A stretch of DNA of 64,000 nucleotides from the NCBI RefSeq assembly GCF_900250075.1, contig NZ_LT977070.1, positions 3,304,480 to 3,368,479 of the forward strand, written 5' to 3'. Below, piece after piece: positions 8,575 to 14,464 of this stretch. The translations under genes were made by a program, and so were the position numbers. The notes under the pieces are model-generated. The model ran no database searches. It saw only the letters and a list, made by a program, of their open reading frames with translations, and was not told the origin of the DNA. Within the stretch, counting starts at the first letter, position 1. Each line of letters begins with the position of its first letter. This DNA comes from Cupriavidus taiwanensis. Its GTDB lineage: Bacteria; Pseudomonadota; Gammaproteobacteria; Burkholderiales; Burkholderiaceae.

Positions 8575-9276
8575 ATGACCCAGCCCACCTTCCGCATCGC
8601 CCCCTCCATCCTGTCCGCCGACTTCGCCCGCCTGGGCGAGGAAGTCCGCCGCGTGACCGAGGCCGGCGCCGACTGGATCCACTTCGACGTGATGGACAAC
8701 CATTACGTGCCCAACCTGACCGTGGGCCCGTTGGTGTGCGAGGCGATCCGTCCCCACGTGACCGCGCCCATCGACGTGCACCTGATGGTGCGCCCGGTGG
8801 ACCGGATCATCCCGGACTTTGCCAAGGCCGGCGCCAATATCATCACCTTCCACCCGGAAGCCAGCGAACACATCGACCGCTCGCTCGCGCTGATCCGGGA
8901 TAACGGCTGCCAGGCGGGCCTGGTATTCAACCCGGCCACCCCGCTGCACCACCTGGACCACGTGATGGACCGGCTGGACGTGATCCTGCTGATGTCGGTC
9001 AACCCGGGTTTCGGCGGCCAGTCGTTCATCCCCGAGACACTGAACAAGCTGCGCGCGGTGCGCCAGCGCATCGACGAATACACCGCGCGCACCGGCCGCA
9101 CCATCCTGCTGGAAGTGGACGGCGGCGTGAAGGTCGACAATATCGCCGAGATTGCCGCGGCCGGCGCCGACACCTTCGTGGCGGGCTCGGCGGTGTTCGG
9201 CAAGCCGGACGCCGACGGCGGCTACCGCGGCATCATCTCGGCGCTGCGCAGCGAACTGGCCAAGGCCGGCCAATGA
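8575..9276 (+). CDS. rpe: Ribulose-phosphate 3-epimerase
   Basis: Rpe interconverts D-ribulose 5-phosphate and D-xylulose 5-phosphate in the pentose phosphate pathway (and the Calvin cycle where present). The 233-residue TIM barrel shows all family motifs: [34 protein letters not shown] with the catalytic Asp and metal-binding His, [21 protein letters not shown] and the phosphate-binding DGGVKVDNI plus VAGSAVFG. The last four bases overlap the gph start (ATGA), so the two are translationally coupled. If the organism also has a plasmid-borne or second cbbE, this would be the housekeeping copy; that cannot be judged here. Confidence 0.97.
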
Positions 9277-10016
9277 CGGCGGGCATGGCACTGCGCCGCA
9301 CCGACTGGAGCGGCATCGAAGGCGTGATCGTCGACCTGGACGGCACCATGGTCGATACGGCGGGCGACTTCCACGCCTCGATCAACGCCATGCTGCTGGC
9401 GCTGGGCCGCCAGCACCCCAACCTGGGGCCGGTGGCGCCGATGTCCGGGCAGGAGATCGTCAGCTACGTCGGCAAGGGCTCGGAAAACCTGATCCGGCGC
9501 GTGCTCGACGCGCGCTTCTCGCCGCTGCACGCCAACGGCCTGTTTGCCGATGCCTACGCGCTCTACGACCGCGAGTACATCCGCATCAACGGCCAGTTCT
9601 CGCAGGTCTACCCAGGCGTGCGCGACGGGCTGGCGGCGATGAAAGCGGCCGGCCTGCGGCTGGCCTGCGTGACCAACAAGCCCTACAGCTTCACCGAGCC
9701 GCTGCTGGCCAAGACCGGGCTGGCGCCGTATTTCGAGCTGGTCTACGGCGGCGACGCGTTCCAGCTGCGCAAGCCCGACCCCTTCCCGCTGCTCAAGGTG
9801 GCGGAGGTGTTCCGGCTCGATCCGTCGGCGATGGCGGCCCTCGGCGACTCGGAAAACGACGCCCAGGCGGCGCGCGCGGCGGGCATGGGCGTGCTGCTGG
9901 TGCCCTATGGCTACAACCATGGCAATCCTGTACAAGCCGTCGAGGCCGATGGTATAGTCGACACCATTGCCCACGCCGCAGCGCTGTTTGCGGCACACCG
10001 GGCAGGTCATCGCTAG
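9273..10016 (+). CDS. gph: Phosphoglycolate phosphatase (HAD family)
   Basis: Gph dephosphorylates 2-phosphoglycolate, a product of DNA 3'-end repair and of RuBisCO oxygenation. The 247-residue protein has HAD motif I ([10 protein letters not shown] with the nucleophilic Asp), motif II (CVTNKP), motif III ([11 protein letters not shown]) and motif IV ([16 protein letters not shown]). The start codon overlaps the rpe stop by four bases, the usual rpe-gph arrangement, and the trp leader begins 45 bases after its stop. A promoter for the trp operon may lie in the last bases of this gene, but only a weak TATAGT at 9953 is visible. Confidence 0.95.
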
Positions 10017-10060
10017 GGTCGGTCATCAGATCGGCCGCGACTGAAATCCCTGAACATTCA

Positions 10061-10147
10061 ATGTTTCTCAACCGCAAACGCATCTCTTCTGGCAGTGATC
10101 GGCAGGCCTGGCCCTGGCGTCGCTGGCGCGCCTCCCAACAGGCGTAA
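10061..10147 (+). CDS. trpL: trp operon leader peptide (28 residues, three Trp)
   Basis: This short frame starts at ATG 10061 and ends at TAA 10145-10147. Its C-terminal half contains AWPWRRWRAS, with Trp at codons 17, 19 and 22, which is extreme for a 28-residue peptide. It sits 45 bases after gph and 306 bases before trpE, where a translation-monitoring leader would be expected. The stop codon overlaps RNA segment 2 of the attenuator described separately. The ribosome-binding site is weak by eye. The peptide has no expected function of its own; translation through the Trp codons is the sensor. The assignment comes from sequence pattern and position. Confidence 0.8.
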   Translation: MFLNRKRISSGSDRQAWPWRRWRASQQA

Positions 10148-10191
10148 AGTGCGTTCGCGAGTCTGCTGACACGCCTTCGATCCGAAGGCGT
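10128..10191 (+). promoter_or_regulatory. trp transcription attenuator with alternative stems 1:2, 2:3, 3:4
   Basis: Segment 1 (GCGCCT, 10128-10133) can pair with segment 2 (AGGCGT, 10140-10145). Segment 2 can instead pair perfectly with ACGCCT (10171-10176), which is the 5' half of segment 3. Segment 3 (ACGCCTTCG, 10171-10179) pairs perfectly with segment 4 (CGAAGGCGT, 10183-10191). Segment 1 starts two bases after the last Trp codon, so a ribosome stalled there would mask it and free segment 2. This is the classic attenuator logic. No U-run follows stem 3:4, so the terminating mechanism (intrinsic, Rho-assisted or pausing) is open. Confidence 0.65.
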
Positions 10192-10453
10192 CGACACCAC
10201 CGGCCAAGGCGACGAGCCATGCCGGGCATCACCACCCAAACCCGCCGAGCCAGCGTAGCCTTGTTTCTCTGCTACGTTTAGCTCAAGAACGCGCCGCACG
10301 CCCGCTTTCCGGCCGTGTGCAGCCTTGTCCGCAAGCTTGCCGCACCACGGTCCGCAACCGGGGCGGAATTCCCATACGCTCCAGCCAACTCTGCCGATAT
10401 GCGGCACCGCGCCTGACCATCGCTCGCGGCGCGGGCCGAACAAGAGGACCGAC
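10192..10453 (+). other. Remaining trpE 5' leader, 262 bases
   Basis: No gene is apparent here. The main structure is a nested hairpin at 10247-10283: outer GAGC/GCTC arms around GCGTAGC (10253-10259) and GCTACGT (10271-10277), with one G-U pair and an 11-base loop. No T-run follows it. The trpE ribosome-binding site (AGAGGA, 10443-10448) ends the region. The rest is unexplained. Confidence 0.5.
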
Positions 10454-11971
10454 ATGACCGAACTGGAATTCAAATCGCTGGCCGACCAGGGCTACAACCG
10501 CATCCCGCTGATCGCCGAGGCCTTTGCCGACCTGGAAACGCCGCTGTCGCTGTACCTGAAGCTGGCCCAGTCGCAGACCCGCGGCGTCAACACCTTCCTG
10601 CTCGAATCGGTGGTGGGCGGCGAGCGCTTCGGCCGCTATTCCTTCATCGGCCTGCATGCGCGCACGCTGCTGCGCGCCTACGGCAACCGCACCGAGGTGG
10701 TGACTGACGGCAAGGTGGTGGAAACCCACGAAGGCAATCCCCTCGATTTCATCGCCGAGTTCGAGAGCCGCTTCAAGGTGGCGCTGCGCCCCGGCCTGCC
10801 GCGCTTCTGCGGCGGCCTGGCCGGCTACTTCGGCTACGACGCGGTCCGCTATATCGAGAAGAAGCTCGCCAGCACGCAGAAGCCCGACGACCTGAACCTG
10901 CCCGACATCCAGCTGCTGCTGTGCGAAGAGCTGGCGGTGATCGACAACCTGTCGGGCAAGCTCTACCTGATCGTCTACGCCGACCCGACCACGCCGGAGG
11001 CCTATTCGCGCGCACGCCAGCGCCTGCGCGAACTGCGCATGAAGCTGCGCCAGCCGGTCGACGTGCCGGTGACCAGCCCGTCGGTGCAGACCGAGGTCTA
11101 CCGCGAATTCGCCAAGGCCGACTACCTGGCCGCGGTGCACAAGGCCAAGGAATACATCATGGCCGGCGACATGATGCAGGTGCAGATCGGCCAGCGCCTG
11201 GTCAAGCCCTATCGCGACGCGCCGCTGTCGCTGTACCGCGCGCTGCGCTCGCTGAATCCGTCGCCGTACATGTACTTCTACAACTTCGGCGACTTCCAGG
11301 TGGTGGGCGCGTCGCCGGAAATCCTGGTGCGCCAGGAAGCGCGCAAGGTGGGCGCCAACGGCGACACCCGCACCGAACACATCGTTACCATCCGCCCGCT
11401 GGCCGGTACGCGCCCGCGCGGCAATACGCCGGACAAGGACGCGCAGCTGGCCACCGAGCTGCTCAACGACCCGAAGGAGATCGCCGAGCACGTGATGCTG
11501 ATCGACCTGGCGCGGAATGACATCGGCCGCATTGCCGAGACCGGTTCGGTCAAGGTCACCGACAAGATGGTGATCGAGAAATACTCGCACGTGCAGCATA
11601 TCGTCAGCTCGGTCGAAGGCACGCTGCGCGAGGGCATGAGCAACCTCGACGTGCTGCGCGCGACCTTCCCGGCCGGCACGCTGTCGGGCGCGCCCAAGGT
11701 CCATGCGATGGAAATCATCGACGAACTCGAGCCGCGCAAGCGCGGCATCTATGGCGGCGCGGTGGGCTACCTGTCGTTCGGCGGCGAGATGGACCTGGCC
11801 ATCGCCATCCGCACCGGCATCGTCAAGGACGGCAACCTCTACGTGCAGGCCGCCGCTGGCATCGTTGCCGATTCGGATCCCGAAGCCGAATGGAGGGAAA
11901 CCGAGGCCAAGGCGCGCGCCGTGATCCGCGCCGCCGAGCAGGTCCAGGATGGCCTGGACTCCGACATCTGA
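10454..11971 (+). CDS. trpE: Anthranilate synthase component I
   Basis: TrpE converts chorismate to anthranilate using ammonia delivered by TrpG, the first committed step of tryptophan synthesis. The 505-residue length is normal. The N-terminal allosteric domain contains [18 protein letters not shown], including the Ser/Arg positions that bind feedback Trp, and the C-terminal chorismate-binding domain shows [38 protein letters not shown] and [19 protein letters not shown]. The start at 10454 follows AGAGGA and gives MTELEF; the frame is open upstream but without support. It is followed after 20 bases by trpG. Regulation by Trp is expected both at the protein (feedback) and at the leader. Confidence 0.97.
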
Positions 11972-11991
11972 GAGAACAGGAGACAGACGCC

Positions 11992-12561
<570 letters not shown>

Positions 12562-12623
12562 GACTGCTCGATTCCGCGCCCGCCAGCCCCCACCACGCCA
12601 TCCAGACTGCCAACGAGAACGCC

Positions 12624-13649
12624 ATGATCACGCCGCAAGAAGCCCTGACGCGCTGTATCGAACACCGCGAAATCTTCCATGACGAGATGCTGCACCTGAT
12701 GCGGCAGATCATGCAGGCGCAGATCTCGCCGGTGATGGCCGCCGCGATCCTGACCGGGCTGCGCGTCAAGAAGGAAACCATCGGCGAGATCTCGGCCGCC
12801 GCGCAGGTGATGCGCGAGTTCGCCAACAAGGTGGTGGTGAAGGACCGCGAACACTTTGTCGATATCGTCGGCACCGGCGGCGACGGCTCGCACACCTTCA
12901 ATATCTCGACCGCGTCGATGTTCGTCGCCGCCGCCGCGGGCGCGAAGATCGCCAAGCACGGCAACCGCGGCGTCAGCTCCAAGTCGGGCAGCGCCGACGT
13001 GCTGGAGGCGCTGGGCGTGAACATCATGCTGACGCCCGAGCAGGTCGGCCAGTGCATCGAAGAAACCGGCATCGGCTTCATGTTCGCGCCCACCCACCAT
13101 CCCGCGATGAAGAACGTCGCGCCGATCCGCAAGGAAATGGGCGTGCGCACCATCTTCAACATCCTGGGCCCGCTGACCAATCCGGCCGATGCGCCCAACA
13201 TCCTGATGGGCGTGTTCCACCCCGACCTGGTCGGCATCCAGGTGCGGGTGATGCAGCGCCTGGGCGCGCAGCACGCCATCGTGGTGTACGGCAAGGACGG
13301 CATGGACGAGGTCTCGCTCGGCGCCGCGACGCTGGTGGGCGAACTGAAGGACGGCGAAGTGCGCGAGTACGAGATCCACCCCGAAGACTTCGGCTTGTCG
13401 ATGATCTCCAACCGCGGCCTGAAGGTGGCCGATGCCGCCGAATCGAAGGACATGCTGCTCGAGGCGCTGTCCAACGCGCCGGGCACCCCGCGCGAAATCG
13501 TGTCGCTGAACGCCGGCACCGCGCTGTACGCCGCCAACGTGGCGGACTCGGTCGAGGACGGCATCCGCCGCGCGCGCGAAGCCATCGCCAGCGGCGCGGC
13601 CCGGCAGAAGCTCGACGCCTTCGTGCGGGCCACGCAGCAGTTCAAGTAA
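12624..13649 (+). CDS. trpD: Anthranilate phosphoribosyltransferase
   Basis: TrpD transfers the phosphoribosyl group of PRPP to anthranilate. The 341-residue protein has the glycine-rich PRPP site [17 protein letters not shown], the [21 protein letters not shown] segment, and [14 protein letters not shown], all family hallmarks. ATG at 12624 gives [18 protein letters not shown], the conserved N-terminus. An alternative ATG at 12558, overlapping the trpG stop, would add 22 residues with no family counterpart; translation might begin there for coupling, but the protein homology favours 12624. It lies between trpG and trpC in the operon. Confidence 0.96.
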
Positions 13650-13660
13650 GAGACGCCGAT

Positions 13661-14464
13661 ATGTCCGACATCCTGCAGAAAATCCTGGCTGTAAAGGCCG
13701 ACGAAGTCGCCGCCGCGCGCAAGCGCCGCGACCTGCCCAGCCTGCGCGCCGAGGCCGAAAGCCTGCGCACCGAGGCCGGTCTCGCGCCGCGCGGCTTCGA
13801 GCGCGCGCTGCGCGACAAGATCGCCGGCGGCCACGCCGGCGTGATCGCCGAGATCAAGAAGGCGTCGCCGTCCAAGGGCGTGCTGCGCGAGCAGTTCCTG
13901 CCCGAGGCCATCGCCGAGAGCTATGCCACGCACGGCGCGGCCTGCCTGTCGGTGCTGACCGACGAGCACTTCTTCCAGGGCCACGCCGACTACCTGAAGC
14001 GCGCCCGCGGCGCCTGCCCGCTGCCGGCGCTGCGCAAGGACTTCATGGTCGACCTGTACCAGGTCTATGAAGCGCGCACCTGGGGGGCCGACTGCATCCT
14101 GCTGATCGTCGCGGCGCTGGACCCTGGCCTGATGGCGGAGCTGGAAGCGTGCGCGCTCGAACTCGGCATGGACGTGCTGGTGGAAGTGCACGGCAACGAT
14201 GAGCTCGACGCCGCGCTGCGGCTGAAGACGCCGCTGCTGGGCGTGAACAACCGCAACCTGCGCACCTTCGAGGTGTCGCTGGACAACACCCTCGAGCTGC
14301 TGCCGCGCATGCCGGCCGACAAGCTGGTGGTGACCGAGTCCGGCATCCTCGGGCCGGCGGACGTGCAGCGCATGCGCGATGCCAATGTGCATGCGTTCCT
14401 GGTGGGCGAGGCCTTCATGCGGGCGAAGGAGCCGGGGGTGGAGCTGGCGCGTTTGTTTGGGTGA
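13661..14464 (+). CDS. trpC: Indole-3-glycerol-phosphate synthase
   Basis: TrpC closes the indole ring, converting CdRP to indole-3-glycerol phosphate. The 267-residue TIM barrel shows [17 protein letters not shown] (phosphate and catalytic Lys), [30 protein letters not shown] with the catalytic Lys, [13 protein letters not shown] and [15 protein letters not shown]. It starts 11 bases after trpD and is monofunctional. The remaining genes for the pathway (trpF, trpB, trpA) are not in this window, as is usual for the split trp loci of Burkholderiaceae. Confidence 0.97.

Follow-up and report, generated by a model that had tools for sequence, protein, structure and literature searches.

A conserved tryptophan-rich leader ahead of trpEGDC in Cupriavidus taiwanensis, with a possible switch element just past its stop codon

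The DNA analyzed here, a stretch of 64,000 nucleotides from Cupriavidus taiwanensis (referred to as the window), carries a short tryptophan-rich frame before trpEGDC. The frame is real and anciently conserved, and it very probably belongs to a ribosome-sensing trp leader; we infer that it is translated and that ribosomes stall on it. An earlier note on the same DNA had reported a classical attenuator at this site—the observation was for the most part correct and its interpretation half correct, as the leader appears to be a variant that has no textbook terminator and a candidate switch placed elsewhere. We place the switch element, with somewhat less than even confidence, in the segment just 3' of the leader stop codon. 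The firmest new result reaches beyond the genus: judged from their sequences, the leader's first codons appear to have coevolved with a downstream partner across the order. The locus comprises the following.

9273 to 10016: gph; the leader frame sits between gph and trpE
9929 to 9958, + strand: candidate operon promoter in the end of gph, sigma-70-like (TGTACA-18-TATAGT, with TG preceding the -10; consensus match only)
10061 to 10147, + strand: trp leader peptide frame, MFLNRKRISSGSDRQAWPWRRWRASQQA and stop (sequence reading, alignments, and order-wide scan)
10109 to 10126, + strand: Trp codons 17, 19, and 22 (UGG at 10109, 10115, and 10124; sequence reading)
10454 to 11971, + strand: trpE, anthranilate synthase component I (NCBIfam, TIGR00564 above cut-off)
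11986 to 14464, + strand: trpG, trpD, and trpC (NCBIfam; outer limits, exact starts not fixed)

The frame opens with ATG at 10061 and runs for 28 codons to TAA at 10145-10147; this reading, with the genes assigned by NCBIfam, bears out the 28-codon leader with Trp at codons 17, 19, and 22 before trpEGDC that had been described earlier. The comparison proposed at that time, across Cupriavidus, Ralstonia, and Burkholderia, was run, and the leader frame and its Trp codons are conserved. The closest loci, with TrpE 93 to 100% identical, are all Cupriavidus, and the frame and its AWPWRRW core occur in all 24 Cupriavidus loci compared (25/25 with the window). Among these 25 sequences, fourfold-degenerate sites vary in 1 of 10 leader columns versus 12 of 17 within the initial 34 codons compared in trpE, codons 11 to 22 hold a single variable nucleotide, and the stretch directly 3' of the leader stop (leader nucleotides 89 to 102) is unchanged throughout. 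The promoter site GGTATAGT is seen in 24 of the 25 aligned Cupriavidus sequences (locus L013 being the exception); the predicted promoter at 9929-9958 would place the leader frame ~95 nt into the transcript. A pattern scan of the organism's own genome for W-x-W-R leaders returned 222 forward and 254 reverse matches, and the reversed pattern returned 94 and 83, numbers too high to be informative.

Related leaders were found in Ralstonia, Burkholderia, Paraburkholderia, Trinickia, Pandoraea, Collimonas, Undibacterium, Massilia, and others. Of 100 Burkholderiales genomes sampled, 66 carry a Trp-rich leader no more than 400 nt before trpE. The sample was hand-picked among the matches listed (top TrpE matches first, then across genera) from a TrpE search with matches in 361 of 399 genomes and is thereby biased toward relatives of the window's TrpE. 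As controls, five dinucleotide-shuffled sets gave 0, 1, 1, 1, and 1 per 100 and the reverse complement gave 2 per 100. The 400-nt rule skips more distant leaders (4 of 9 were counted in family f1), and no recognizable leader was found in three genomes of group g2. A strict leader rule applied to 178 loci left 142 with a leader and 36 without. At locus L084, from a 1.2-Mb genome (other sampled members of g4 are mostly 4 to 6 Mb), the leader looks decayed (MTNLRSFSWRQWLF), with the CGUUUUUUGUAUCGCUUC stretch retained.

Within and beyond the frame, the leader RNA offers the following elements.

10073 to 10082, + strand: segment 0, CGCAAACGCA, codons 5 to 8, the 5' arm of helix P1 (minimum free energy [MFE] fold of 10061-10210; RNAalifold of 10061-10171)
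10091 to 10127, + strand: P2 hairpin over the Trp codons (RNAalifold; the one variable position of codons 11 to 22 falls here)
10128 to 10145, + strand: P3 hairpin over the leader end and stop codon, the earlier note's stem 1:2 (RNAalifold; pairs intact in 25 Cupriavidus)
10149 to 10156, + strand: segment 2, post-stop, GUGCGUUC, invariant in 25/25, with alternative partners 10073-10082 and 10287-10294
10150 to 10159, + strand: 3' arm of P1, UGCGUUCGCG (MFE, RNAalifold)
10171 to 10191, + strand: the earlier note's 3:4 hairpin, a perfect 9 bp; subclade-specific
10252 to 10278, + strand: hairpin AGCGUAGC/GCUACGUU (CGUAGC/GCUACG), with species-dependent loop length (alignment, RNAalifold pairs 36-39)
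10287 to 10294, + strand: segment 3, GAACGCGC, candidate partner of segment 2 (8 bp in 25/25 Cupriavidus)
10311 to 10352, + strand: covarying conserved hairpin 3' of segment 3 (RNAalifold; a U-A/C-G change among the pairs)

In the reading that we prefer, a ribosome that finds tryptophan plentiful would reach the stop codon and cover segment 2 while the downstream RNA is being made. The 2:3 helix would then not form, the C-rich leader would be left open, and expression would be cut off before trpE. When tryptophan is scarce, the ribosome would halt at UGG 17, 19, or 22 and open P2, and the free segment 2 would pair with segment 3 (10149-10156/10287-10294) as the "on" structure. With no ribosome on the leader, segment 2 would fold back on leader codons 5 to 8 to give P1.

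Among 8-bp helices joining 10061-10170 to 10171-10439, the candidate 2:3 pairing is the only one able to form in 23 or more of the 25 Cupriavidus, and none of 200 trials in which the downstream columns were shuffled singly gave such a helix. A mirror control, with the downstream columns reversed, returned one chance helix at leader positions 10122-10133 that is as conserved and slightly longer, so the column shuffles overstate how remarkable the pairing is, and the complementarity taken alone is only moderately convincing. In Ralstonia, the post-stop segment GCGUUUGC (GCGUUUG) has CAAACGC 75 to 103 nt downstream in 17/17 sequences, where segment 3 was placed by position and sequence rather than by alignment and where two of the 17 sequences look like duplicates and 15 were assigned by match to L023; one base pair is C-G in Cupriavidus and U-A there. 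The same Ralstonia loci (L023, L024, and L182 to L196) carry an extra GCGUUUG copy near -79 of trpE, and motif and complement alternate four times before trpE, comparable to segments 1-2-3-4 of a classical attenuator.

Folding with the ribosome footprint masked gave mean 2:3 probabilities across the 25 Cupriavidus of 0.19 in free RNA, 0.37 with a ribosome at W17, and 0.65 with one at W22. With a queued ribosome added, the W17 and W22 values were 0.71 and 0.91; an initiating ribosome gave 0.47, and a ribosome on the stop codon gave 0.01. The corresponding Ralstonia values were 0.95 to 1.00 in all states except the stop, where the value was 0. In genus means, the modeled dependence of 2:3 on ribosome position fits antiterminator logic. 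At the level of single sequences, 2:3 at W22 alone was at most 0.21 in 8 of the 25 Cupriavidus (0.16 in the window, 0.43 with the queue), and the helix dominates without any ribosome in five Cupriavidus (L009, L011, L013, L025, and L056) and in all Ralstonia. Our confidence in the switch model is lower on account of the mirror control and of the divided start-site results given below.

The leader-start helix, P1, is missing from the MFE fold of 10061-10185 alone. Segment 0 is unchanged in the 25 Cupriavidus bar one A-to-G change in L013 that retains pairing, and P1 is near-invariant within the genus, with almost no covariation. The folding model gives it a mean probability in free RNA of 0.63 in Cupriavidus and about 0 in Ralstonia, and in a duplex swap test the two genera rank 29th of 46 and 11th of 46, respectively. 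The support for P1 comes from homology with Burkholderia, Pandoraea, and Oxalobacteraceae, in which these codons have a pairing arm downstream and the two sides change together, as in AAUAAAAAACGG/CCGUUUUUUAUU, AACAAAAAACGG/C(C/U)GUUUUUUGUU, and CAAGAAACGG/CCGUUUCUUG (14 Pandoraea), and further in ACAGAAAACGG/CCGUUUUUUGU, UUAAAAAACAU/AUGUUUUUUGA, ACAACAAACG/CGUUUGUUGU, and CAAUAAA/UUUAUUG.

Two permutation tests, both of which ignore kinship between genera, compared own with foreign partners. An arm-swap test drew on 65 loci, which contain 24 different 5' arms; with the own partner the helix scores added up to 504, versus 414 ± 12.5 when permuted (0 of 20,000 as high), and 6 of the 24 arms came 10th or lower against foreign arms. 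In a duplex test over the whole downstream region, the energy sum for 47 genus representatives (one locus per genus label) was -962 versus -788 ± 21 when permuted (0 of 20,000), with the median representative only at the 24th percentile; 14 of the 142 loci had been removed (out-of-frame gph picks and unclear starts, e.g., L105, L112, and L179), and in f49 loci, here as in the strict-rule count and in the opening-cost models of the 48 loci below, the trpE start may be misplaced, trpE appearing to open with GTG. Outside Cupriavidus and Ralstonia, the partner of the leader's first codons depends on lineage and is either the trpE ribosome-binding site or a U-tract like that of a terminator. Most of the Pandoraea downstream arms are not U runs, so it is the pairing that is kept and not a U-tract.

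The arrangement first drawn for the window was a classical attenuator, with stem 1:2 at the stop codon, a 2:3 stem of AGGCGU/ACGCCU, and the 3:4 hairpin at 10171-10191 as terminator. Its 1:2 stem stands: P3 (GCGCCU/AGGCGU, 10128-10133/10140-10145) extends into the stop codon and is kept in the 25 Cupriavidus and in Ralstonia, where it reads ACGCCC/GGGCGU with one two-sided change, from U-A in Cupriavidus to C-G. The 3:4 hairpin holds in part, being perfect in the window and present with 8 to 10 bp and compensatory changes in 12 of the 25 Cupriavidus (e.g., ACGUCCUCG/UGAGGACGU and GCGCCCUCG/CGAGGGCGU), and segment 4 does resemble segment 2; however, the other 13 have at this position either no hairpin or an unrelated smaller one, the hairpin has no U-tract, and it lies outside the invariant block. 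A terminator at 10171-10191 was rejected on account of the missing U-tract and those 13 sequences. Sequence conservation among the 25 Cupriavidus ends at leader nucleotide 110, where the originally drawn segment 3 starts, and the post-stop segment has its conserved complement at 10287-10294 instead of in that segment 3. Stems 2:3 and 3:4 in their original form are thus not a genus-wide switch. A terminator scan of 9900-10500 in the window found none (0.4 expected in shuffles), and no intrinsic terminator was found between leader stop and trpE in any of the 25 Cupriavidus or 17 Ralstonia sequences. A terminator-like site, called with a relaxed spacer that lets the T-rich stretch begin up to 4 nt after the stem, occurs in 18/19 Burkholderia, Paraburkholderia, and Trinickia loci, in 15/15 Pandoraea loci, and in 7/18 Oxalobacteraceae loci. 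To the extent that sequence scanning can show it, Cupriavidus does not use a classical terminator here, and we regard the classical arrangement as distinctly unlikely.

Control could also be translational, with the leader structure hiding or freeing the trpE ribosome-binding site, a possibility that was modeled in loci up to L078, in 48 loci from L085 on, and in the 25 Cupriavidus. In short-leader families (f5, f15, f22, f26, f28, and f32), in which 91 to 116 nt separate the leader start from trpE, the leader's first codons pair with the trpE ribosome-binding site. The modeled cost of opening that site in the 16 short-leader loci is 13.8 kcal/mol in free RNA, 9.3 at a first-Trp stall, and 13.1 with a ribosome on the stop codon, and 16/16 are cheaper at the first-Trp stall than at the stop; a last-Trp stall costs 11.7 (below the stop in 11/16) and a queue 5.4. 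The 32 long-leader loci show no such difference (stall 8.5 versus stop 8.8 kcal/mol). For Cupriavidus itself, the conserved hairpins between segment 3 and trpE favor translational control, as do the 6 of 25 sequences (L009, L015, L018, L019, L020, and L025) in which queued W17 is at least 2 kcal/mol cheaper than the stop, but 3 of 25 shift by at least 2 kcal/mol the opposite way, and the genus means are nearly equal (free, 4.9; W17, 5.4; queued W17, 4.5; stop, 5.1 kcal/mol). The window's own cost is low and insensitive to ribosome state (free, 2.7; W17, 3.2; stop, 2.6; range, 2.6 to 3.7 kcal/mol over five states), which leaves control at its trpE start unsupported. On these models, translational control describes the short-leader relatives well and the window poorly, with a mixed picture for some other Cupriavidus, and we consider it unlikely here. 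The non-Trp part of the peptide, MFLN(K/R)KR, is conserved from Cupriavidus to Oxalobacteraceae, which would suit a leader working in trans through a small peptide or a small RNA, for which Sinorhizobium peTrpL and rnTrpL are a precedent (PMC7298713). Outside Cupriavidus, however, RNA pairing explains the MFLNKKR codons, whose partners change with them, and within Cupriavidus synonymous sites are frozen too; action in trans is accordingly given little credence. Least credible is a short frame that is left untranslated and conserved as an RNA element only. It would accord with the leader's lack of a Shine-Dalgarno sequence (none was found in the window, where the duplex is +0.4 kcal/mol), yet across families leader lengths differ by whole codons, stop codons vary, and the UGG clusters are kept. 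Over all 142 loci with a leader, a Shine-Dalgarno duplex of -3 kcal/mol or stronger precedes 8 leaders (mean, +0.24) versus 125 trpE genes; nearly every Burkholderiales Trp leader is thus without one, 134/142 being weaker than that cutoff.

Besides P1, Oxalobacteraceae loci L029 to L077 show complementarity between AUGUUUCUC at the leader start and GAGAGAAACAUG at the trpE start. Their modeled opening cost is ~9 to 15 kcal/mol in free RNA in most and drops mainly with a queued or initiating ribosome.

For the switch at the post-stop segment, which we continue to prefer, the output would be premature transcription termination. Rho dependence is the most natural guess, though no more than a guess, made because no intrinsic terminator was found in Cupriavidus or Ralstonia and the start site is insensitive. 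Rho prefers C-rich, G-poor RNA; leader nucleotides 110 to 230 in Cupriavidus have a C fraction of 0.40 and a G fraction of 0.26.

Several further hairpins lie in the leader. The one at 10252-10278 is retained in most Cupriavidus through two-sided changes, one pair being G-U in 11/25 and C-G in 12/25, and is broken in a few rows; it is followed by UUUAGCUC or GUUAGCUC. Beyond segment 3, the 5' arm of the 10311-10352 hairpin can pair with 10293-10302 instead, so that 10293-10352 holds two competing conserved hairpins with GGCCGUGUGC (10311-10320) in common. The second of these covers 10349-10354, a complement of the trpE Shine-Dalgarno region. A chain of alternative hairpins linking segment 3 with the trpE Shine-Dalgarno sequence (10293-10352 to 10446-10451) was considered and is not claimed, because the overlap with segment 3 is only ~2 nt and the window's start-site cost is static; the helices are partly conserved.

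Taken across the order, the Burkholderiales trp leaders may be one ancient device, a proposal that we put forward tentatively and hold to be rather less than evenly likely. In it, a helix would run from the first codons to a movable partner, and the sensor would have been rewired between outputs. In the translational, short-leader form, the partner would be the trpE ribosome-binding site; Burkholderia, Pandoraea, and Oxalobacteraceae would use the U-tract of a hairpin resembling a terminator; and Cupriavidus and Ralstonia, which would have lost the intrinsic terminator, would use the post-stop segment. Changes of leader K to R, H, or E would then have been driven by RNA pairing and not by the peptide. 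The lineages with and without a terminator-like site, together with the translational wiring, provide a natural series on how a sensor switches outputs.

Leader-based control of trpE had been called rarely described in betaproteobacteria, which is consistent with the open-access papers listed by our literature searches. None of the papers so listed deals with a trp leader of Burkholderiales; older comparative work in subscription journals may include some, such as that of Vitreschak et al. in 2004 and of Merino, Jensen and Yanofsky in 2008. In ermC-type translational attenuation, a stalled ribosome frees a downstream start in response to an antibiotic and not to charged tRNA. The freeing of a start site as modeled in the short-leader families is alike, but this is not the Cupriavidus design. 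In E. coli trpL, a near-stop leader segment is covered by the finishing ribosome and otherwise pairs downstream.

No Burkholderiales trp leader is described in the accessible portions of PMC4833913, PMC2965389, PMC3110155, and PMC1173090. A survey of Rfam motifs suggested that amino-acid attenuators arose in the gamma-proteobacteria, and its table counts 8 Burkholderia and 6 Ralstonia, which we read as genomes (PMC3766115); the Trp leaders in 66 of 100 Burkholderiales genomes argue against such a view. Rfam at gathering thresholds, including Trp_leader (RF00513), matched nothing in the window or in 15 related loci. The LEU element of actinobacterial leuA combines leucine codons with a pseudoknot (PMC1262725), and in our models the window's trpE start does not appear to be controlled in the way given there. 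The trpL leader of Sinorhizobium meliloti ends in a terminator and yields the small RNA rnTrpL (PMC7298713). It shares with the window a Trp leader before trpE(G) and differs in the terminator and small RNA. The claim that the window reproduces the enterobacterial trpL does not hold: no intrinsic terminator was found in Cupriavidus, nor an Rfam match at gathering thresholds or a leader Shine-Dalgarno sequence, and the design is not that of the enterobacteria. What it has in common with E. coli trpL (RF00513) is a frame with a cluster of Trp codons before trpE and a near-stop segment that would be covered by the finishing ribosome and could otherwise pair downstream. In Cupriavidus, by contrast, ~300 nt separate the leader stop from trpE, the leader start takes part in a helix, and the candidate antiterminator partner lies ~130 nt away.
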